Of a DNA stretch of 64,000 bases, positions 44-11,402 are shown one piece after another. The stretch lies in contig NZ_CP090349.1 in the NCBI RefSeq assembly GCF_021398735.1, forward strand, positions 5,103,001-5,167,000. Reading direction: 5' to 3'. This DNA comes from Methylobacterium oryzae. Its GTDB lineage: Bacteria; Pseudomonadota; Alphaproteobacteria; Rhizobiales; Beijerinckiaceae. A program made the translations under genes and the position numbers. How positions within the stretch are numbered: the stretch's first letter is position 1; every line of letters begins with the position of its first letter. A model generated the notes under the pieces. That model was not told where the DNA came from. It searched no databases and worked only from the letters and a program-made list of their open reading frames with translations.

Positions 44-2389
44 ATGATCCGCGGGTTGGGGAGGTCCGGGATCGCGCGCCGCGTCCTCGTGGTCGGCGCG
101 ATCCCGATTCTCGTCGCGGCCGCCATCGCGCTGGGCGCCTGGATCCTGCTCTACGAGGCCGAGCGGGCCCGGACCGGCGCCGTGGTGGCGACGGAGACCG
201 CACAGACGCTGACGTCGATGAACCGGGCGCGGGCGGATGCCGTCAGCGGCGGCACCGCGCGGCGGGACGAGGCCGAGCGTCGCTTCGACGAGCGGGCCGC
301 CACGGCGGCCGGGCAGCTCGAACGCCTGGAGGGTCTCGCGCGCACGCGCGGCCAGTCGGCTCTCGTGGCGACCGTCACGGGCGATCTGAACTCGCAGGTG
401 ACGCGCATGCGCTCGCTCCTGCTCTCCGAGCGGACCGCGAACGCGACGATCGCCGATATGGCCCGGCGGGCGGACGCCCTGGTGGCCCTGACCGACGTTG
501 CGCGCCGGCGCCAGCAGCAGGACAACGCTCAGCTGATCGCCGTCCTGGCCGTCAAGGATGCCGAGCTGGAGCGGAACCAGGGCGTCGTCACGGCTCTCCG
601 GGAGCTCCGGGAGGCGATCAGCACCGCGGAGCTGAACCGGGCGCGCATCGGTCGCCCGGTCTTCCCGATCGAGTTCGATGAGCTCGCCGCCGACCTTCGG
701 CAGCTCGATGCGGTGGGCGACCGGCTACGCCGCGTCCTGCGGGTCGACGGCGAGGCGGGGGCGGCGGACCGGGCGACAAAGCTCCTGAAGGCGTACCGCG
801 ACCGGAGCCGGACCGAGGACGGCCTCAACAGGGTGCTCTCCGAGGGCTTCGAGCTGACCCGCGCGACCCAGGCCGGCCGCGTCCTGGTCGAGTGGTGCGA
901 CCAGCTCGTCCAAGTGAACGTCACCCGGCAGAACCGGCTGTACGAGGAGGTCGCGCTCCTGATCCGTCACTCGGTCCTCTCGAACGAGGCCGAGCTCTCC
1001 GCCCAGGACATCGCCCTCACGGCCCTGCGCCTGGCCCGGCGGACGGATGCGGCCCTGGCGCGCCGGGATACTGCGGAAGCGTCGCGGGTGCTGGAGGCGG
1101 GCGCGGAGCTGTCGGGCACGTCCCGGACGCTGCTCATCCCGGTGAGCATCCGGGACGAGATGGCGGAGGCGATCGACGGGTGGCGCACGCAGCTCGCCGC
1201 GACGATCGGGAAGATCGGCGAGCAGAACGAGACCATCGCCGACATGGACAGCCGCGCCGCCACGATGAGCGCCAACGCGCAGACCTTGAGCCGGGCCTTC
1301 ATCGACGATGCCGACCAGTTCGGCAGCGTGATCCGGCAGTTGCTGGTCGTGGGGGCGGTCGGCGCCCTGTGCCTGGGGATCGGCGCCGCCGCCGCGGTGG
1401 CGCGCTCGATCACCCGGCCGCTGCACGCGCTCCAGCACAGCATCGTCACCGCCGCCGCCGCGCCCGCCCCCGAGGATATCGGCCGCGACAGTCACCTGCT
1501 CACCCGACGCGACGAACTCGGCGACATCGCCAGGGCGACCAACGCGTTCCTGGAGCAGATCCGCCGCCGCGAAGCGGACCGGCGCAACGCCTCCCAGCGC
1601 GCCGACGACGCGCTCACGACCCTGCGGCAGGCCCAGGAGGACCTGATCCGCGCCGAACGGCTCGCCTCGCTCGGGCAGCTCGTGGCGGGCGTCTCGCACG
1701 AGATCAGCACCCCGCTCGGCATCGCCCTGACCACGGCGACGCAGGTCCAGTCCGACTCGGCGGCGTTCGCGCGCATGGTCGGGGACAACCAGCTCTCCCG
1801 GTCGCGGCTGACCCAGTATGCCGGGCGGATGCGGGAGGGCGCGCAGCTCCTGACCAGCAACCTGATGCGCGCGGCCGATCTCCTCTACAGCTTCAAGCAG
1901 GTGGCGGCCGATCAGGCCATCGAGGACCGCCGCCCGCTGAACCTCGCGGACTGGATCGACGAGCTCCTGAAGAGCCTGCGCGCCCTGGCGCGGCCGGGCC
2001 GCCACGTCTTCGAGGTCGACTGCCCGCCCGATCTCGTCGTCGACACCCTGCCGGGGATCCTGGCGCAGGTCGTCTCGAACGCCGTCAAGAACGCGATCGA
2101 GCACGGCTTCCAGGATCGGGAGGGCGGCCGCATCACCATCACGGGGATCCGGTCCGGGGACGGCATCGGCCTCTCCATCGCCGATGACGGGCGCGGCATC
2201 GACGGGGCCGACCTCGGCCGCGTGTTCGACCCGTTCTTCACGACGGCCCGCGCCCGCGGCGGCACGGGCCTGGGCCTGCACATCGTCCACAACCTCGTGG
2301 TGAACCGCCTCCAGGGGCGGGTCGAACTGCAGAGCAGCGCGGGTGCCGGCACGGTGCTGCGGCTGTGGCTACCGGAGCGGCTGGCATGA
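44..2389 (+). CDS. Membrane sensor histidine kinase, TorS-like, coupled to a UgpB-like binding protein
   Basis: A 781-aa inner-membrane histidine kinase. The first hydrophobic helix is at about residues 14-36, followed by a long helical periplasmic region and a second membrane helix near 430-455. A HAMP-like linker, a short coiled coil and the kinase core come next. The phospho-accepting His is about residue 552 in LVAGVSHEISTPLG, the N-box is SNAVKNAIEHGF (about 680), and the G-boxes are DDGRGID and GGTGLGLHIV. It has no receiver domain. It is clearly paralogous to the kinase at 5535-7862, with shared RADxLxxLTDxARxRQQ in the sensor and a shared STPLGIALTT kinase segment. ATG 44 is preferred to the in-frame GTG 32. 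The stop overlaps the next gene as ATGA, so the kinase and a periplasmic binding protein are probably made together. The sensor type (TorS/MCP-like helical bundle) is inferred from layout. Confidence 0.9.
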   Translation: MIRGLGRSGIARRVLVVGAIPILVAAAIALGAWILLYEAERARTGAVVATETAQTLTSMNRARADAVSGGTARRDEAERRFDERAATAAGQLERLEGLARTRGQSALVATVTGDLNSQVTRMRSLLLSERTANATIADMARRADALVALTDVARRRQQQDNAQLIAVLAVKDAELERNQGVVTALRELREAISTAELNRARIGRPVFPIEFDELAADLRQLDAVGDRLRRVLRVDGEAGAADRATKLLKAYRDRSRTEDGLNRVLSEGFELTRATQAGRVLVEWCDQLVQVNVTRQNRLYEEVALLIRHSVLSNEAELSAQDIALTALRLARRTDAALARRDTAEASRVLEAGAELSGTSRTLLIPVSIRDEMAEAIDGWRTQLAATIGKIGEQNETIADMDSRAATMSANAQTLSRAFIDDADQFGSVIRQLLVVGAVGALCLGIGAAAAVARSITRPLHALQHSIVTAAAAPAPEDIGRDSHLLTRRDELGDIARATNAFLEQIRRREADRRNASQRADDALTTLRQAQEDLIRAERLASLGQLVAGVSHEISTPLGIALTTATQVQSDSAAFARMVGDNQLSRSRLTQYAGRMREGAQLLTSNLMRAADLLYSFKQVAADQAIEDRRPLNLADWIDELLKSLRALARPGRHVFEVDCPPDLVVDTLPGILAQVVSNAVKNAIEHGFQDREGGRITITGIRSGDGIGLSIADDGRGIDGADLGRVFDPFFTTARARGGTGLGLHIVHNLVVNRLQGRVELQSSAGAGTVLRLWLPERLA

Positions 2390-3771
2390 GCGGCGCGACG
2401 CAACCCATCCGGCGCGGCGTCGGCCGCTCGAGGCTGCCGAGCGCCGGCCTGCTCATGACGCTGCTCGTCGGGCTATTCGTCGGGCTGCCCGCCGCGCTGC
2501 GCCCGCTGCCCGCCGCGGCCCTCACCGAGATCCAGTTCTGGCACGCCCTGGACGGGCCGAACGGCGAGCTGGTGACCCGCCTCGCCGACACCTTCAACGC
2601 CTCCCAGCCGGACTACCGGGTCGTGCCGGTCTACAAGGGCTCCTACGCCGAGACGATCAGCAGCGGCATCACGGCCTACCGCACCGGCGCGGCGCCGCAC
2701 CTGCTGCAGGTCTTCGAGGTCGGCAACGGCACCATGGCGGCCGCCGTCGGCGCCGTCAGATCCGTCGCCACCGTGATGCGGGAGGCCGGGCTCTCGGTGA
2801 CGCCCGAGGACTTCCTGCCGGTCGTCGCCACCAACTATCGGGATGCCGAGGGCGGGATGCTGTCGCTCCCCTTCAACGTCTCCTCGACGGTGATGTGGAT
2901 CAACCGCGACCGGTTCCGTCTGGCGGGACTCGACGCCAAGCAGCCCCCGGCGACTTGGCCCGAGGTCTTCGAGGCCGCGCGGCGGCTCAAGGCGGCGGAC
3001 GGCAAGCGGTGCGCCCTGTCCTCCGCCTGGCCGACCTGGGTGCATCTCGAGCAGCTGTCCGTCTGGCACGACCGGCCGCTCGCGACCCGTTCCAACGGCC
3101 TGGACGGCTACGATGCCGAACTCGTCTTCAACGGCCCGCTCCAGGTCCGCCACCTGCAGAACCTCGTCGACCTGAAGCGCGCGGGCGTGTTCGAGTACAA
3201 CGACCGCGTCAATCGCGGCGAGAGCCGGTTCGTCTCGGGCGACTGCGCGATCTTCCTCACCTCGTCCAGCCTGTACGGCAAGGTCGCCACCGCCGCCCGG
3301 TTCGACTGGACGGTCGTGCCCATGCCCTTCTATCCCGACGTCGTGCCGGAGCCGCAGAACGCGATCCTGGGCGGCGGCTCGCTCTACGTGATGCAGGGCA
3401 AGACAGCGGACGAGTACCGCGGCGTCGCCCGGTTCCTGGCCTTCCTGATGGACGGGCGGCAGCAGGCCGCGATGTACCGGAACACTGGCTACATCCCCAC
3501 CACGCGCGCCGCCTACGACGACGCGGTGGCGGAGGGCTTCTTCGAGCGGCACCCGCAGCTCCACGTCGCCGTGCAGGAACTCACCCGGCGGCCGCCGACA
3601 CGCAACACCGCCGGTCTGCGTCTGGGCAACATGCTGCAGATCCGGGACATCTGGGCCGAGGAACTGGAGGCGGCGCTCGACGGCGCGAAGGCGCCGCAGC
3701 GGGCCCTCGACGACGCCGTGGCGCGGGGCAATCAGGTGCTGCGGGTCTTCCAGCAGCGGACCAAGAAGTGA
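2386..3771 (+). CDS. Orphan periplasmic binding protein, UgpB-like (ABC family 1)
   Basis: A 461-aa exported solute-binding protein with an N-terminal signal segment ending near AAALTEIQFWHA. It resembles glycerol-3-phosphate/glycerophosphodiester binding protein UgpB along its whole length; landmarks are VPVYKGSYAETISSGI, YRTGAAPHLLQVFEVG, QNAILGGGSLYVMQGK and GLRLGNMLQIR. It starts inside the stop codon of the upstream kinase (ATGA). No permease or ATPase gene lies nearby, so it probably presents ligand to the kinase rather than feeding an importer, as TorT does for TorS or LuxP for LuxQ. The ligand is unknown; a glycerol-phosphate-type or sugar compound is the natural guess from family. 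Confidence 0.88.
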   Translation: MSGATQPIRRGVGRSRLPSAGLLMTLLVGLFVGLPAALRPLPAAALTEIQFWHALDGPNGELVTRLADTFNASQPDYRVVPVYKGSYAETISSGITAYRTGAAPHLLQVFEVGNGTMAAAVGAVRSVATVMREAGLSVTPEDFLPVVATNYRDAEGGMLSLPFNVSSTVMWINRDRFRLAGLDAKQPPATWPEVFEAARRLKAADGKRCALSSAWPTWVHLEQLSVWHDRPLATRSNGLDGYDAELVFNGPLQVRHLQNLVDLKRAGVFEYNDRVNRGESRFVSGDCAIFLTSSSLYGKVATAARFDWTVVPMPFYPDVVPEPQNAILGGGSLYVMQGKTADEYRGVARFLAFLMDGRQQAAMYRNTGYIPTTRAAYDDAVAEGFFERHPQLHVAVQELTRRPPTRNTAGLRLGNMLQIRDIWAEELEAALDGAKAPQRALDDAVARGNQVLRVFQQRTKK

Positions 3772-3794
3772 GCGTGGCGGGCGGTCGGCCCACA

Positions 3795-3886
3795 CCGTCA
3801 TCGCGAGCGCCGCGAAGCGACCCAGGGATGCGCGCCGTGAGTGAACGTGGCGCTGCTGGATTGCTTCGCTCCGCTCGCGAGGACGG
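3795..3886. repeat. 92-bp palindromic repeat, copy A
   Basis: Imperfect inverted repeat between two convergent binding-protein genes. The left arm begins CCGTCATCGCGAGCG and includes GCGAAGCGACCCA; the right arm runs GGATTGCTTCGCTCCGC to GAGGACGG and is the reverse complement with a few mismatches. A second copy of exactly the same length lies at 7988-8079 in the same orientation. It resembles the REP-like palindromic units scattered in genomes of this group, but the family name was not checked. Confidence 0.75.
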
Positions 3887-3900
3887 TGCTGTCGTTGCCG

Positions 3901-5538
3901 TCAGCGCGGGTCGCGGAACCGTACCGTCTCGAACAGGTGGCGGCCGAGGGGATCCATCGTCAGGCCGAGCACGTCGTCGCGGAGCGCCAGATGCACCTTG
4001 GTGTGGGCCAGGGGCACCCAGGGCATCGCGCGCCGGGCGATGGCCTGAGCCTGCCGGTACAGAGCCTGGCGCGCTTCCCGGTCGCCGGTTCGGCGGGCGG
4101 CCTCGACCAGCCGGTCGTAGGCCGGGTCGCACCAGCGGGCGAGGTTGGCGCCGCCGGTCTGGGCGGCCTTGCAGCCGAGCAGGACGTTCAGGAAGTTGTC
4201 CGGGTCGCCGTTGTCGCTCGTCCAGCCGTAGAGCATCAGCGTGGGCTCTCCGCCGTACAGGGCGGCGCGGTACGCGTTCCAGGGACGCGTGACCGGGCGC
4301 GCGCGGATGCCCACCTGCGCGAGGTCGGCCTGGATCATGTCGGCGACGCGCCGGCCATTCGGGTTGTAGGGTCGGCTGACTGGCGGATACCACAGATCCA
4401 CGTCGAAGCCGTCGGCGAGCCCGGCCTCGGCCAGCAGGCGCAGCGCCTCGCCGCGATCGAAGGGGGTGTCCGGCAGGTCCGCGTCGTGGGCCCAGATCCC
4501 GGGCGGCAGCGGCCCCTGCGCCAGGATCCCGGCGTCGCCGTAGACGCCCGCCACGATCGCCCGCCGGTCGATGGCGAGGTTGACCGCGCGCCGCACCCGG
4601 ACGTCGCCGAAGGGCGCGCGGGTCGTGTTGAGGGCGAGATAGGCGACGTTCAGCTCGGCCAGCGCGAGCAGCGTCAGGCCCGGCTCCGCCCGGATCGCGT
4701 CGAGGTCGCCGGTCGCCGGGAACGCCATGGCGTGGCACTCGCCGGCCCGCAGCTTGTTCAGCCGGACCGCCGCGTTCGGCGTGATCGCGAAGACAAGACC
4801 GTCGGGGCGCTCGCCCGGCTCGTTCCCGTCCGCGGCGCGGCGCCAGTAATCCGGGAAGGCGCGGTAGCGGAGGACCTGATCCGGCCGGTACCCCTCGAAG
4901 ACGAACGGGCCCGTCCCGATGGGCGCCCGGGCGAGGTCGTCCGACGCGTTGCCGGCCGCGAGGGCGGCCGCGTACTCGAGGGACAGGATGGCGCCGAAGG
5001 CCTGCGCGATGTTGGCGAGGAAGGTGGTGTCGGCCTCGCGCAACCGGAAGCGGACGTGGCGCGGATCCGGGGCGTCGACGGTCTCGATCAGGTCGGCGAG
5101 GCCGAGATCGTGGAAGTAGGTGAAGCCCTGCGCGGCGCCGTCGGGCCCGGAGCGCCGCTGCCGGGTGAACGAGAACACCACGTCGTCGGCGTTCAGGGCG
5201 CGCGTGGGGGTGAAGCGCGCGTTGGCGTGGAAGCGGACGCCGTCCCGCAGAGCGAAGACGTAGGTCCGGCCGTCTTCCGAGACCGTCCAGGATTCGGCGA
5301 GGGCCGGGCGGATCGTCGTGGTGCCGGGCACGAACTCCACGAGCGTATTGTAGACCTGCCACGCGGCGTTCATCGTGGTGGTGGTCGTGGCGCGGGCGGG
5401 ATCGAAGGTTTCCGGGCTGCCTTCCGAGCAGAACACGAAGGTGCGCGCCGATGCCGGGCCGTGCCCCAGGAGCACCGCCGAGATGAAGCCGGCCGCCAGG
5501 GCGCGCTGGCCGGCGCGGTATGCCGCGGCCGGCCTCAC
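3901..5538 (-). CDS. Orphan periplasmic binding protein, DppA-like (ABC family 5)
   Basis: A 545-aa exported oligopeptide-type binding protein with a signal peptide ending near PASARTFVFCSEG. It matches the dipeptide-binding protein DppA in many landmarks: CSEGSPETFDP, YNTLVEFVPGTT, LNADDVVFSFTRQ, PIGTGPFVFEGY, RPYNPNGRRVADMIQ, GWTSDNGDPDNF and VDPLGRHxFE-type C-terminus (MDPLGRHLFETV). It starts at a GTG that overlaps the upstream kinase stop as GTGA. There is no DppBCDF set nearby. The coupling to a kinase mirrors the UgpB-like pair at 44-3771, so a sensing role is inferred. DppA-type proteins are known to act as chemotaxis ligand presenters in enterobacteria, which makes this plausible but not proven. 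Confidence 0.88.
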   Translation of the reverse strand: MRPAAAYRAGQRALAAGFISAVLLGHGPASARTFVFCSEGSPETFDPARATTTTTMNAAWQVYNTLVEFVPGTTTIRPALAESWTVSEDGRTYVFALRDGVRFHANARFTPTRALNADDVVFSFTRQRRSGPDGAAQGFTYFHDLGLADLIETVDAPDPRHVRFRLREADTTFLANIAQAFGAILSLEYAAALAAGNASDDLARAPIGTGPFVFEGYRPDQVLRYRAFPDYWRRAADGNEPGERPDGLVFAITPNAAVRLNKLRAGECHAMAFPATGDLDAIRAEPGLTLLALAELNVAYLALNTTRAPFGDVRVRRAVNLAIDRRAIVAGVYGDAGILAQGPLPPGIWAHDADLPDTPFDRGEALRLLAEAGLADGFDVDLWYPPVSRPYNPNGRRVADMIQADLAQVGIRARPVTRPWNAYRAALYGGEPTLMLYGWTSDNGDPDNFLNVLLGCKAAQTGGANLARWCDPAYDRLVEAARRTGDREARQALYRQAQAIARRAMPWVPLAHTKVHLALRDDVLGLTMDPLGRHLFETVRFRDPR

Positions 5539-7862
5539 GGCGTCCGGATCGCGCCGGTCCGCGGCCGGGCGGCCGCTCCAGCACCCTGGGCGGGAAAGTC
5601 GACCTGCACGACGGTCCCCTGGCCGGGCTCGCTGCTGACCGCGATGCGGCCGCCGAGCTTGGCGGTCACGAGATTGTGGACGATGTGCATGCCGAGCCCC
5701 GTGCTGCCGGCGCTGCGGGCCGTCGTGAAGAACGGGTCGAAGATCCGGTCGAGGTGCTCCGGCGGGATGCCCTGACCGGTGTCGCGGACCTCCATCCGCA
5801 CGAGGCCGCCCTCCCGCTCCGACACATCCACGGTGATCCGGCCCGGCTCGCCCGCCCGGAACCCGTGCACGACCGCGTTCGCGATGAGGTTGGTCACGAT
5901 CTGCGCGAGCACGCCGGGATTGGTGTCGATGACGAGGTCCGCGGGGCAGGCGCGCTCCACCGTATGGCCGCCCTTGCGCAGCATCGGCCTGAGGCTCGCC
6001 AGCAGGTCGTCGAGCCAGGTCGCCAGCACGACGCTGCGGCTCTCGTCGCTGACGCGGTCCACCGCGACCTGCTTGAAGCCCTGGACGAGGTCGGCGGCCC
6101 GGGTGAGATTCGTGCAGAGCAGGGTGGCGCCCTCCTCGACCCGGTCGACGAAGTGGTTCAGCCGGGACCGCGACAGCGTGCCGGCAGACAGGCCGGTGCG
6201 GAAGGCCCGCGCCTCGTCGCTCATGAGCGTCCCGGTGGTGAGCGCGATGCCCAGCGGCGTGTTGATCTCGTGGGCGACCCCGGCCACGAGCTGCCCGAGG
6301 GAGGCGAGCTTCTCGGCCCGGACGAGGTTGTCCTGGGTCCGGCGCAGCTCGACCAGGGCGACGTCCGCCTGATCCTTGGCCCGGCGCAGCGCGCCTTCCC
6401 GGCGGGTGATCTCGGAGACGAACACCGCGGTGGCGCGGGCGATGTCGCCGAGCTCGTCCCGGCGCGCCGTGCCCCGCACGGCCGCCCCCGCCGGGTTACC
6501 GGTCAGCATGACCATGTCGCCCTGGAGGGCGCGCAACGGCACCAGGATCGAGCGGGCGACGAGGATCACGACCAGCGCGCCGAACAGCAGGAGCCCGGCC
6601 GCGCCGGCGAGCAGGATCCGCTGGATGACGATGCCGGACCGGTCGGCGTCCTCCACGAAGGCGTCGTTGAGCGCCTTGGCGCTGTCGATCATCGTCGCGG
6701 CGAGCCCGTCCATCGCGACGATCATGGCGTTCTGCTGCCGCAGGCCCCCGATGGTGGTGGTGAGGCGCCCGCGCCACCCGTCGAGGGCCTGGACCATCTC
6801 GGCCTGGATCAGCGGCGAGATCGGCAGCGAGGCGGCGCTCCGGGCGAGGCGCTCGCCCTCGTCGCGCATCCGCTCGGCGAGGGCCGCGTCCCGGTGCAGG
6901 AGGGCGCCCGCGGTGCGCGGCCCCAGCTTGAGGGTGCTGATCGCGACGTTCTGGGTGGCGCGCTCGATCTCGTTGGCCTCCACGGAATAGGCCAGCAGCT
7001 GCGCCACCTCGTCGTGCAGGCTCTCCTGGCCGGACGTCTCGATCTTCAAGGTGCGCTCGATCCAGGCGTCGAGCCTCGCGCGGAGGTCCGGCTTCGACCC
7101 CGCCGTCTCGGCGGTGAGCGCGTCGAGGGCCTCCGCGTCGGCGTCCCGGCCGTCGGCCCGCAGCGCCGCCGCGAGGTCGCGGCTGGCGGCGCGGAAGAGG
7201 CCCTGCGCGCGCGGGCCGTCGCCCTCCGAGACCGCCGCTCCGGCGGGGCCGGCCGCGGGCGCATCGCTCCGGGCCGCGGCCTGGGCGGCGAGCACGGCGC
7301 TCTCCGCGCTCCGGGCTCGCAGGGCGTTGAGGCGGGCGACGAGGCCCCGGGCGACCCGCAGCGCCTCGACCTTCTCGGCCGTCGAGCGCGCGAGGTCGGC
7401 GTTCGAGGCCTGCTGCCGCAGGCGCGCCCGGTCGGTGAGGTCGATCAGGGTGTCGGCCCGCTGCGTCATCTCGCGGATCAGGCCGTCATTCTCCCGGGTC
7501 CGGCGGACGAAGGCGTCCATCTCGCCCCGGTAGCCGGCCAGCGCCCGCTCTACCGAGGCGGTCCGCGCGCGCTGCTCGTCGATGCGGGCGAAGCCGGCGA
7601 GCCGGCCGAGGCCGGCCTCGGCCCGTGCCGTCAGGCTGGCGAAGCGCTCGGCGTAGGCGGGCCGGTCCTGCGCGTCCGCGGCGGCGTACTGGTCGCGGAC
7701 CAGGCGGGCGGTGGCGATGTCGTGGTACACGTCGGCGGCCAGGACCGCGCCGCGCCGGGCGCGCTCCTCCTGCGCCAGGAGGAGCCAGCCGGCCATGGCG
7801 ATCGCGCCGGCGGCGAGGATCGGCACGCCACCGACCAGGGCGATCTTGGGTCCAACCCGCAT
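5535..7862 (-). CDS. Membrane sensor histidine kinase, TorS-like, coupled to a DppA-like binding protein
   Basis: A 775-aa paralogue of the kinase at 44-2389. ATG 7862 (MRVGPKIALVGGVPIL) is chosen because a membrane helix starts there; the open frame continues upstream through a repeat element and is not coding. Layout is helix 1 at about 6-27, a long helical sensor region, helix 2 near 415-440 (ILLAGAAGLLLFGALVVILV), a HAMP-like linker, and a HisKA domain with His about 531 in VAGVAHEINTPLG. ATPase boxes are TNLIANAVVHGF, DTGQGIP and GSTGLGMHIVHNLV. There is no receiver domain, so a separate regulator is needed; the OmpR-type gene at 8749-9513 is the nearest candidate. The stop overlaps the GTG of the DppA-like gene. 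Confidence 0.9.
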   Translation of the reverse strand: MRVGPKIALVGGVPILAAGAIAMAGWLLLAQEERARRGAVLAADVYHDIATARLVRDQYAAADAQDRPAYAERFASLTARAEAGLGRLAGFARIDEQRARTASVERALAGYRGEMDAFVRRTRENDGLIREMTQRADTLIDLTDRARLRQQASNADLARSTAEKVEALRVARGLVARLNALRARSAESAVLAAQAAARSDAPAAGPAGAAVSEGDGPRAQGLFRAASRDLAAALRADGRDADAEALDALTAETAGSKPDLRARLDAWIERTLKIETSGQESLHDEVAQLLAYSVEANEIERATQNVAISTLKLGPRTAGALLHRDAALAERMRDEGERLARSAASLPISPLIQAEMVQALDGWRGRLTTTIGGLRQQNAMIVAMDGLAATMIDSAKALNDAFVEDADRSGIVIQRILLAGAAGLLLFGALVVILVARSILVPLRALQGDMVMLTGNPAGAAVRGTARRDELGDIARATAVFVSEITRREGALRRAKDQADVALVELRRTQDNLVRAEKLASLGQLVAGVAHEINTPLGIALTTGTLMSDEARAFRTGLSAGTLSRSRLNHFVDRVEEGATLLCTNLTRAADLVQGFKQVAVDRVSDESRSVVLATWLDDLLASLRPMLRKGGHTVERACPADLVIDTNPGVLAQIVTNLIANAVVHGFRAGEPGRITVDVSEREGGLVRMEVRDTGQGIPPEHLDRIFDPFFTTARSAGSTGLGMHIVHNLVTAKLGGRIAVSSEPGQGTVVQVDFPAQGAGAAARPRTGAIRTP

Positions 7863-8748: not shown

Positions 8749-9513
8749 TCAGTCTCCCTCGGGGCGGAATATGTATCCGAGGCCCCGCACGGTGCGGATG
8801 TAGCGCGGATTGCCGGGGTCCGGCTCGACCTTCTTGCGGATGCGGTTGATCCGTACGTCGATGGCGCGGTCGAACGCGTCCGGGTCGCGGGCGTCCGCGA
8901 GGTCGAGCAGGCGCTCGCGCGAGAGCGCCCGCCGCGGATTGTCGGCGAACGCCTTCAGCAGGTCGAATTCCGAGCGGGTGAGCGCCTGCTCCAGACCGGC
9001 ATCGTCGCTGAGGCGCAGGGCGTCGAGCTCCAGCCATTTCGTGCCGAACCGGATGCGGCGCCCGCTCACGGGAACCGGGGCCGGCGCGGCGGCGGTCGGC
9101 GTCTGCACGCGGCGCAGGACCGAGCGCACGCGGGCGACCAGCTCGCGCAACTCGCAGGGCTTGGGCAAGTAATCGTCGGCCCCGAGCTCCAGCCCGACCA
9201 CGCGGTCGATCGCGCTCGCCGTGGCGGTGAGCATGATGATCGGGATCGCGGTCCGGGCCTTGAGGTCGCGCACGATGGAGAGCCCGTCCTCCTCGGGCAT
9301 GTTCAGGTCGAGCACGATCAGGTCCGGGCTGTGGCCGGCGAGGTGCTCCCGCAAGGAGCGCCCGCCGTCGCACAGGACCACCGAGAACCCGTGGAGCTTC
9401 AGGTAATCCCCGACCATCTCACGGGTCGCCGCCTCGTCGTCCACCACGGCGATCGACGGGATCGCCGCACCGCCGCGGGCGGCGCCGGGGGCGGGGCTGT
9501 CTGGTATGGTCAT
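8749..9513 (-). CDS. OmpR/TorR-type two-component response regulator
   Basis: About 254 aa. The N-terminal receiver domain has the acidic pair in VVDDEAA, the phospho-accepting Asp in LIVLDLNMPEEDG and the conserved Lys in DYLPKPCELREL. The C-terminal winged-helix DNA-binding domain has SEFDLLKAF, RALSRERLL and the end motif YIRTVRGLGYIFRPEG. ATG 9513 is used; an in-frame GTG at 9528 is possible, and neither has a strong ribosome site. It is divergent from the DUF3369 hybrid kinase. It is the closest DNA-binding output for the two kinases at 44-7862, which lack receivers; this pairing is inferred from position only. Confidence 0.92.
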   Translation of the reverse strand: MTIPDSPAPGAARGGAAIPSIAVVDDEAATREMVGDYLKLHGFSVVLCDGGRSLREHLAGHSPDLIVLDLNMPEEDGLSIVRDLKARTAIPIIMLTATASAIDRVVGLELGADDYLPKPCELRELVARVRSVLRRVQTPTAAAPAPVPVSGRRIRFGTKWLELDALRLSDDAGLEQALTRSEFDLLKAFADNPRRALSRERLLDLADARDPDAFDRAIDVRINRIRKKVEPDPGNPRYIRTVRGLGYIFRPEGD

Positions 9514-9647
9514 CGCAGCGGTGCGCACTTTCCGGGTTCGCTCTTGAACGAATGCAGGAATCGTATCGGCTCACGGTAGCGTGACAAGTTTTCAACACGA
9601 TTTCTAGCGTAGTCGTCCGATTGCGAGCAGCATTTCAGGTCATAGCC

Positions 9648-11402
9648 ATGGACGATGACACCCTCACGCTGATCCCTGACGACCTCGACGAGGCGCAGCC
9701 GACCGCGGGAGCCTGGGTGATCGCCGTGATCGACGACGATCCGGCCGTGCATGACGGCACGCGCTACGCGCTGGCGAGCTACACCCTCGACGGGCGCGGC
9801 CTGGAGATTCTCACCGCCCGTTCGGCCGCGGAGGCGCGGGTGCTGCTCGCCGAGCGCCGCGACGTGGCGGTGGTGCTGCTCGACGTGGTGATGGAGACCG
9901 ACAATGCCGGGCTGGAGCTGGTGGACTACATCCGGCGCGAGCTCCGGCAGGAGACCGTGCGCATCATCCTGAGGACCGGCCAGCCCGGGCAGGCGCCGGA
10001 GCGGCGGATCATCGTCGACTACGACATCAACGACTACAAGGCGAAGACCGAGCTGACCGCCGACAAGCTGTTCACCAGCCTCACCGCGGCCCTGCGCGCC
10101 CATCAGCAGCTCAAGCGCCTCGACGAGACCCGGCGCGGGCTCGAGATCATCATCGACGCCGCGCCGATGCTCCTCGATCACAAGTCGATGCAGCGCTTGG
10201 CGGAGGGTGTCCTCACCCAGGTCGCCTCGCTCCTGAACGTCGCCTGCGCCGGCATCTTGGTCCTGCGCGAGACCGCCGCCCCGCAGGAGCGCTTCTGCGT
10301 TCTGGCCGGCTCCGGCTGTTACGGCCACTACGCCGGCCGCGAGCCGTGCTGGCCGCTGGAGGAGCGGGTGCAACCCCTCGTCGAACGCGCCTTTGCCGAG
10401 CGCCGGCACAGCTTCGGCGAGCACTGGTCGACCCTGTATCTGCACACGGCGAGCGGCAGCGAGATCGTCGCGCTGATCGAGGCCGACCGCCAGTTGTCCG
10501 AGACCGACCGGTCGCTCATCGCCCTGTTCACGAGCCGGCTGTCGATCGCCTTCGACAACGTCATCCTCTACGAGCGGCTACAGCTGACCAACGCCGACCT
10601 CGAGCGGCGGGTCGTCGAGCGGACCGCCGAGCTGATCCGGGCGAATCGCCGGCTGGACCTGCAGCGCTCGGACCTGCGGCGCGCCAACAGCCTGAAGACC
10701 GAGATCCTCGGCACGATCGCGCACGATCTGAAGAACCCGCTGGCGGTCATCCTCGGCCGCGCCGAGATGCTGTCCGACCTGATCGACATGCAGGGCGACC
10801 GGGAGCAGATGCGGGCGCAGGTGCAGCACGTGCGCACCAGCGCCAAGGGGCTGACGACCATGATCGACAGCCTCATGGCCGACGCGATGAACGACGCCCT
10901 CGACATCAGCCTGCGCCGGGAACCGGTCGACCTCGCGGGCCTCGCCCGGGAGGTCTGCGAGGCCGACCGGCCGCTCGCCGACGCGAAGGACCAGACCCTG
11001 GTCTGCGAAGGCCCGGACGAGCTGTTCCTCTGCGGCGACGCCGAGCGCCTGCGCGAGGCCCTCGACAACCTCGTCTCGAACGCCATCAAGTACAGCCCGA
11101 CGGGCGGGGCGATCACGGTCCGGGTCAGCCGCGAGCCGGGCCCGCGCGGCGCGGAACTGATCTGCGCCGTCGCCGACCACGGGCCCGGCCTCTCGCCGGA
11201 GGATTCGGCCCGCGTGTTCGGGCGGTTCCAGCGCCTGTCGGCCAAGCCCACCGGCGGCGAGAATTCGACCGGTCTCGGGCTCTCGATCGTCCGTCGGATC
11301 GCCGAGCTTCACGGCGGCCGCGCCACGGCGGAGAGCGCCGGTCCCGGGCTGGGGGCGGTCTTCGCGATCCGCTTCCCGGAAGAATCCGTCGGGCTGATCT
11401 GA
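9648..11402 (+). CDS. Hybrid response regulator / histidine kinase with DUF3369 domain
   Basis: About 584 aa, cytoplasmic, no membrane helix. The order is a receiver-like domain (VIDDDPAVHDGTRYAL, Asp in VVLLDVVMETDNAG, ILRTGQPGQAPE), a DUF3369 sensor region (about 180-320, with MLLDHKSMQRLAEGVL), a coiled coil near 325-350, and a HisKA/HATPase core. The His is in GTIAHDLKNPLAVI; ATPase boxes are DNLVSNAIKYSP, ADHGPGLS and NSTGLGLSIVRRIA. Receiver-first kinases of this class take a signal through phosphorylation of their own receiver, so this one may sit downstream of another kinase. ATG 9648 is chosen over a TTG at 9621. It shares a 134-bp divergent promoter region with the OmpR-type regulator. 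Confidence 0.88.
   Translation: MDDDTLTLIPDDLDEAQPTAGAWVIAVIDDDPAVHDGTRYALASYTLDGRGLEILTARSAAEARVLLAERRDVAVVLLDVVMETDNAGLELVDYIRRELRQETVRIILRTGQPGQAPERRIIVDYDINDYKAKTELTADKLFTSLTAALRAHQQLKRLDETRRGLEIIIDAAPMLLDHKSMQRLAEGVLTQVASLLNVACAGILVLRETAAPQERFCVLAGSGCYGHYAGREPCWPLEERVQPLVERAFAERRHSFGEHWSTLYLHTASGSEIVALIEADRQLSETDRSLIALFTSRLSIAFDNVILYERLQLTNADLERRVVERTAELIRANRRLDLQRSDLRRANSLKTEILGTIAHDLKNPLAVILGRAEMLSDLIDMQGDREQMRAQVQHVRTSAKGLTTMIDSLMADAMNDALDISLRREPVDLAGLAREVCEADRPLADAKDQTLVCEGPDELFLCGDAERLREALDNLVSNAIKYSPTGGAITVRVSREPGPRGAELICAVADHGPGLSPEDSARVFGRFQRLSAKPTGGENSTGLGLSIVRRIAELHGGRATAESAGPGLGAVFAIRFPEESVGLI

Follow-up and report, generated by a model that had tools for sequence, protein, structure and literature searches.

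Probable swappable receptor heads: histidine kinases paired with binding proteins around a proposed regulatory hub in Methylobacterium oryzae and its relatives

The DNA considered here, a window of 64,000 nucleotides from Methylobacterium oryzae (contig NZ_CP090349.1, positions 5,103,001 to 5,167,000; G000:C1:5103001-5167000 in our numbering, G000 being the genome that carries it), contains two membrane sensor histidine kinase genes, each joined to the gene of a periplasmic binding protein. The kinase K1 (44-2389, forward strand; 781 amino acids, HATPase_c, H-box residue His552) shares a four-base stop/start overlap, ATGA (2386-2389, forward), with the gene of a UgpB-like protein (2386-3771, forward; 461 amino acids, N-terminal signal-like stretch). 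Its paralogue K2 (5535-7862, reverse strand; 775 amino acids, HATPase_c, H-box His531) shares another, GTGA (5535-5538, reverse), with the gene of a DppA-like protein (3901-5538, reverse; 545 amino acids, GTG start), and the two pairs converge. Upstream of K2 lies an OmpR-type response regulator (8749-9513, reverse; REC and Trans_reg_C in Pfam), and divergent from it a receiver-DUF3369-HisKA-HATPase protein (9648-11402, forward; DUF3369 145.8 bits), called HK3369 below, which we propose as a hub partner of the regulator and which the first-pass annotation of this DNA, made from the letters alone, had overlooked. There is no ATP-binding cassette (ABC) permease near either pair, the sole PF00528 matches within the window being at about 33.0-34.4 kb, where, as judged by eye, they have their own binding protein and ATPase alongside. 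What that annotation did describe, two related membrane kinases, four-base overlaps (ATGA, GTGA), partners of two different families and the lack of a permease gene beside them, is borne out by our analysis, in which Pfam places the partners in SBP_bac_8/SBP_bac_1 and SBP_bac_5.

K1 and K2 are 41% identical (320/775, E 3e-159), the catalytic core being better kept (157/293, 53.6%) than the sensor (134/380, 35.3%), and hydropathy gives two transmembrane stretches in each (in K1 at about residues 14-32 and 434-452). They are the only full-length family members in the genome, the next match covering residues 429-778 only at 29%; the relatives of K1 in M. longum and M. pseudosasicola are 95% and 85% identical. 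By the NCBIfam cut-offs neither kinase belongs to TorS or PgtB: TorS models give 61.5 (K1) and 61.7 (K2) bits for NF008543 (cut-off 982) and 56 and 67 bits for TIGR02956 (cut-off 676.5), and the PgtB model NF047794 gives 55 and 73.9 bits (cut-off 1000), matching K1 from residue 375 and K2 from residue 416 onward. No Pfam family, HBM (PF16591) included, matches either sensor at E of 5 or less, in a search where HMMER filters drop most weak matches. M. pseudosasicola (G021) has in addition a partial third kinase copy near a contig end (L045:377-1741, reverse), a 454-amino-acid frame that matches K1 residues 505-781 only (67%) and adjoins DyP-peroxidase and imelysin genes.

The first-pass annotation had proposed to tabulate the next gene across relatives, and we have done so in 41 relative genomes, a named genome collection and 297 genomes of the order, with the best three candidates per genome of the order scored for the kinase and the best four for HK3369, so that numbers of heads per genome are lower bounds there. 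In these samples there are 42 distinct family members that extend into the sensor (25 + 4 + 13, K1 and K2 themselves counted), of which the kinase of L058 is truncated where its contig ends and that of L061 has a frameshift; the duplicates L062 and L064 were removed, and L125 and L131, which score best to K1 but have DppA neighbours, were counted as K2-type. The search of the 41 relatives gave 36 rows, with nine core-only rows and a fragment near a contig end (G021:C46:380-1222) standing outside the neighbour count. A UgpB homologue follows all eight K1-type kinases and an intact DppA homologue follows 33 of the 34 K2-type ones; since a kinase with an intact binding protein is thus kept in 41/42 family members, the pairing cannot be put down to chance. 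A class-wide sample (32/385 genomes; best two candidates per genome scored) gave matches to the kinase core only, the window genome excepted.

How one kinase type came to have two kinds of partners is suggested by the trees. In a tree of 62 kinase cores, built by a quick method without L045_a377 and L061_b6665 and having long branches elsewhere, the eight UgpB-paired kinases form one clade (support 100) within a clade of 27 rows (99), whose other 19 rows, from Chelatococcus and Methylobacterium, are DppA-paired (the remnant-bearing L060, discussed below, counted). As the UgpB-paired clade is nested inside DppA-paired kinases, a partner swap would be the simplest reading, with a kinase duplicated and one copy taking UgpB in place of DppA. 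In a UgpB tree of 26 rows, rooted on two importer UgpBs, the K1-linked proteins make an eight-row clade (100/100) nested in a larger one (97/97) that also takes in 11 importer UgpBs, while kinase-linked UgpBs placed divergently from their kinases make a separate clade of five rows (100/100); because of these two separate clades, UgpB appears, given that root, to have been recruited by kinases at least twice. In 13/13 places the gene directly after an importer UgpB is UgpA-like (at L193 the contig ends within it), and four of the five such genes scanned pass the UgpA cut-off, the fifth falling 5 bits short.

Less closely related kinases of the order have only the second transmembrane stretch, HAMP and the catalytic core in common with K2, and when the profiles of K2-type and DctP-type kinases are compared, the alignment begins at residue 414 (second transmembrane stretch/HAMP). 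Neighbours were read for 21 of the 50 core-only rows of the order sample. A DctP of the tripartite ATP-independent periplasmic (TRAP) transporter type precedes the kinase in 11 of these 21 loci; 10/10 of those scanned are PF03480, and BLAST identified the eleventh, L055, whose reading frame is partial. In three loci (L137, L140, L143) the kinase and a UgpB homologue diverge, and L142 has both DctP and UgpB. The next-gene counts, 8/8 for UgpB, 33/34 for DppA and 14/21 distant kinases with DctP or a divergent UgpB beside them, together with the nested swap, support the earlier idea of one kinase scaffold with different binding proteins; that these were "captured" is upheld by the tree for UgpB only. 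At L149 a 357-amino-acid frame with a signal-like stretch (8976-10049, reverse) stands in DctP's place before the kinase, HK3369 and regulator set; it has no Pfam match, being also the only neighbour of a partnerless kinase that was scanned against Pfam, and is perhaps a fourth kind of partner. Near two DctP-type heads (L134:2745-4184, forward; L144:10436-11848, reverse) we also see a gene of a GlcD-like flavin adenine dinucleotide (FAD) oxidase, below the GlcD cut-off, hinting at a 2-hydroxy acid as the DctP ligand at these loci.

The regulatory genes accompany the heads closely. HK3369 occurs in exactly the 18 kinase-bearing genomes among the 41 relatives, and in the order sample in 42 of the 46 genomes with a kinase match, being absent from the remaining 251; the four kinase-bearing genomes that lack it (G041, G260, G277, G309) have weak core matches only. 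Among the best four candidates scored per genome, all 42 show a single HK3369 match, and a relative of the regulator is found near HK3369 in loci where the latter matches at 46% or more. The order HK3369, regulator, kinase, DppA, all in one direction, is seen in ten loci (L063, L065 and L066 of Chelatococcus, L067 of a Hyphomicrobiales metagenome-assembled genome, and L121, L122, L128, L129, L130, L132). Two heads but one HK3369 are present in G000, G002, G010, G014, G015, G017 and G021, and in G094, G130 and G253 a core-only kinase, preceded by DctP in G094 (L146), adjoins the only HK3369, with a K2/DppA pair at another place; in G009 the HK3369 match is in two pieces. Such adjacency and the co-occurrence, which is clean despite shared ancestry, support the earlier proposal that the OmpR-type regulator is a shared output, with HK3369 accompanying it. 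At L150, L151 (where the kinase has an HK_sensor_dom_bact sensor) and L152, core-only kinases have DUF3369-type matches of a more remote kind as neighbours (33-36% along part of the length), and it may be that DUF3369-type partners accompany this kinase core on a broader scale.

Both binding proteins of the window keep the residues by which their namesakes hold ligands. The UgpB-like protein matches SBP_bac_8/SBP_bac_1 with 94.1/70.5 bits, passes the NCBIfam UgpB equivalog (470.7 against 411 bits), has an N-terminal hydrophobic stretch by hydropathy, and aligns over residues 46-460 with E. coli UgpB (4aq4, E 3.9e-120). The seven glycerol-3-phosphate contact positions, which we take from UniProt and mapped on 4aq4, and two pocket tryptophans are all kept in it (9/9), as they are in 12/12 kinase-linked UgpBs (the window's counted; the divergent ones are 44-46% identical); both tryptophans are serine in the deposited variant 6x84. 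It is the sole UgpB match of the genome, in which no UgpA exceeds the cut-off (best 103.6 against 335 bits; UgpE was not the subject of a genome-wide search), and two permeases of the best candidate set score below both the UgpA and the UgpE cut-off; among 14 control genomes one has a UgpA over the cut-off. The DppA-like protein is of family 5 (PF00496, 297.4 bits, cut-off 32.4), below the NCBIfam DppA equivalog (481.5 against 1005 bits), with E 5.7e-141 to 8z1y and 1.5e-139 to 1dpp; it has 15 weaker matches in the genome, the nearest paralogue being 33% identical. Its R389 and D442 correspond to Arg355 and Asp408 of E. coli DppA, which hold the ends of the dipeptide, and this clamp is kept in 33/33 DppA partners, the remnant L060 excluded. 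Since the UgpB site and the DppA clamp are kept, these residues support glycerol-3-phosphate or its diesters as candidate ligand of K1 and dipeptides as that of K2.

For the sensor of K2 (residues 28-415; 6618-7781, reverse) a long helical bundle is predicted. Kinase cores filled the matches, McpS excepted, in the Foldseek/VIA search with the full K2 model, and therefore a model of the sensor only was made (mean predicted local distance difference test, pLDDT, 94.1). Its top structural match is McpS at 11% identity, and the sensors of TorS and LytS match nearly as well; LuxQ is not among the matches listed. Structures of the TorS and LytS sensors have been solved in complex with binding proteins. 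The modelled K2 sensor is thus predicted to be of the TorS/LytS/McpS fold, a fold known to dock binding proteins.

The gene pairs and their conservation, the nested swap, the hub co-occurrence, the kept ligand-site residues and the predicted K2 fold support a picture in which every kinase makes up a receptor head together with its binding protein, and it seems probable to us that such heads are swappable, their binding proteins docking on cognate kinases and feeding one hub. What we infer beyond this is secretion of the DppA-like protein, docking, which way the kinase is switched, transfer of phosphate, a common hub for the heads, and the ligands. A secreted binding protein would capture its ligand and dock on the helical periplasmic sensor dimer of the co-translated kinase, which would change autophosphorylation at His552 of K1 or His531 of K2, and the phosphate would pass to the OmpR-type regulator directly and/or via the receiver of HK3369. 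Several heads could in this way feed one output through a single local hub, K1 with its UgpB-like partner reporting glycerol-3-phosphate or diesters and K2 with its DppA-like partner reporting dipeptides, and a new head would come about when a kinase is duplicated and captures another binding protein. The wider suggestion, of a plug-in architecture where a conserved alphaproteobacterial hub (OmpR-type regulator and HK3369, one copy per genome) is served by one or more heads, the extracellular specificity of which evolves as the unrelated DctP, DppA and UgpB families replace one another, with UgpB recruited at least twice, we hold to be evenly balanced.

Several observations weigh against this picture. 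The 34th K2-type kinase (G005, L060:9926-10546, forward) has an intact frame beside a remnant that aligns only to DppA residues 401-465, possibly a head losing its binding protein, and seven of the 21 distant kinases, some of them with an HK_sensor_dom_bact or MASE8 sensor, have nothing nearby that BLAST matches to UgpB, DppA or DctP. The N-terminus of the DppA-like protein has no hydrophobic stretch over the hydropathy threshold used; its homology to mature DppA begins at residue 32. Over 31 of the 34 K2/DppA pairs (L058, L060 and L061 excluded) DppA distances correlate with those of the kinase core at r 0.865 and with those of the sensor at r 0.835, which gives the sensor no advantage, and special sensor-DppA covariation was rejected on these values. 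The sampled genomes share ancestry, so that Fisher values for the HK3369 co-occurrence overstate independence. A glycerol-3-phosphate gene cluster 8.6-12.7 kb upstream of K1 (L013:2311-6488, reverse; glpT and glpD over NCBIfam cut-offs, a GlpR-like DeoR regulator below) was rejected as evidence for the K1 ligand, being too far away with other genes between; it may serve uptake and use of glycerol-3-phosphate and possibly be a distant output of the K1/UgpB sensor. The neighbouring solute-binding proteins of AgtS and AruS failed to bind these kinases, as the accessible part of one study reports (PMC11113362).

The alternative that survives best is that the heads pair as proposed but K1 and K2 use different regulators, one of them from elsewhere in the genome. 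It is in keeping with the 6.4 kb between the end of K1 and the regulator, with heads far from HK3369 in G019, G020 and G024, and with heads and HK3369 on different contigs in the draft genomes G006, G012, G014, G015 and G022; we find it unlikely, however, because in G011 a K1/UgpB pair adjoins HK3369 and regulator (L046) with no K2 among the genome's matches, and HK3369 accompanies the kinase in 18/18 relatives, unlinked heads included. Improbable in our view is direct, McpS-like binding of small ligands by the kinase sensor, the neighbouring binding protein being no signalling partner: McpS is the top match of the K2 sensor, its structure, by the titles of the entries, has ligands bound in the sensor itself, and AgtS/AgtB demonstrates that adjacent genes can be without a functional link (PMC11113362), but TorS and LytS, solved with binding proteins, match nearly as well, and one kinase core is repeatedly found next to three unrelated binding-protein families. 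That the binding proteins are spare parts of ABC importers encoded elsewhere, while the co-transcribed kinase senses something else, is very improbable, for although 62 PF00528 permease matches in the genome exceed the cut-off and, with the weaker DppA-like matches, leave room for the DppA-like protein to serve a distant permease, the genome lacks a UgpA over the cut-off, importer UgpBs adjoin a UgpA-like gene in 13/13 places, the nearest DppA-like paralogue is a remote one and the pairing is kept in 41/42 family members.

The proposed swappable heads have known counterparts, and the first-pass statement of knowing no such system with a UgpB or DppA fold was too strong in view of CuaD/CuaS, SBP_bac_8 receptor activators and CBP/ChiS. 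CBP of Vibrio is a family-5 protein, like DppA; PgtA is of the NtrC type, and PgtC belongs to a binding-protein family; TorT and XylF share a binding-protein type distinct from UgpB, DppA and DctP. TorT/TorS/TorR and XylFII/LytS also combine a binding protein with a sensor kinase, in solved complexes, and our pairs share with that type the adjacency kept in relatives and, as predicted for K2, a sensor fold that is known to dock binding proteins; here, in contrast, the binding proteins are of UgpB, DppA and DctP types, there is an extra DUF3369 kinase, and no TorS equivalog is present. McpS, a chemoreceptor whose helical bimodular domain was solved with its own ligands, is distant from the K2 sensor (11% identity), which has no Pfam match. 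In Salmonella PgtA/PgtB/PgtC a separate sensor, PgtC, acts on the kinase PgtB and regulator PgtA, as the available text states (PMC11077982), similarly to the K1 and K2 heads, though K1 and K2 fall below the PgtB cut-off. In the part of the Ruminiclostridium CuaD/CuaS/CuaR paper examined, the family-1 protein CuaD works with the adjacent kinase CuaS as a dedicated binding protein, distinct from the importer's own, and binds its sensor with or without cellobiose; unlike here, it is a predicted lipoprotein for cellobiose, and no partner exchange is mentioned in that text (PMC10384115). Vibrio CBP is likewise paired with a membrane sensor, ChiS, which it controls and represses without chitin, as far as the accessible text goes (PMC10208484), but it also serves import (PMC8449061, in the part available), and ChiS binds DNA itself. 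A survey available to us in part counts at least 13 binding-protein families, SBP_bac_8 included, that activate receptors, and gives close genes for 10 of 11 characterised couples (PMC11113362). Among the titles and abstract beginnings listed from the open-licence literature we found no UgpB- or DppA-coupled kinase, no kinase family exchanging three binding-protein families and no function for DUF3369 kinases. Binding-protein-coupled kinases are already known, and what is new is that entire families of binding proteins change places on a single kinase core.

What is seen here bears on the origin of new sensor-kinase specificities: the DppA to UgpB swap is polarised and occurs between close relatives, with regulator and HK3369 constant. 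This unusually clear natural series lends itself to asking which sensor residues choose the binding protein and whether heads interchange at will, and the kept residues allow a guess at the ligands of both partners. Orphan binding proteins that annotation counts among importer components gain a likely sensory role, and DUF3369 kinases gain a defined context.
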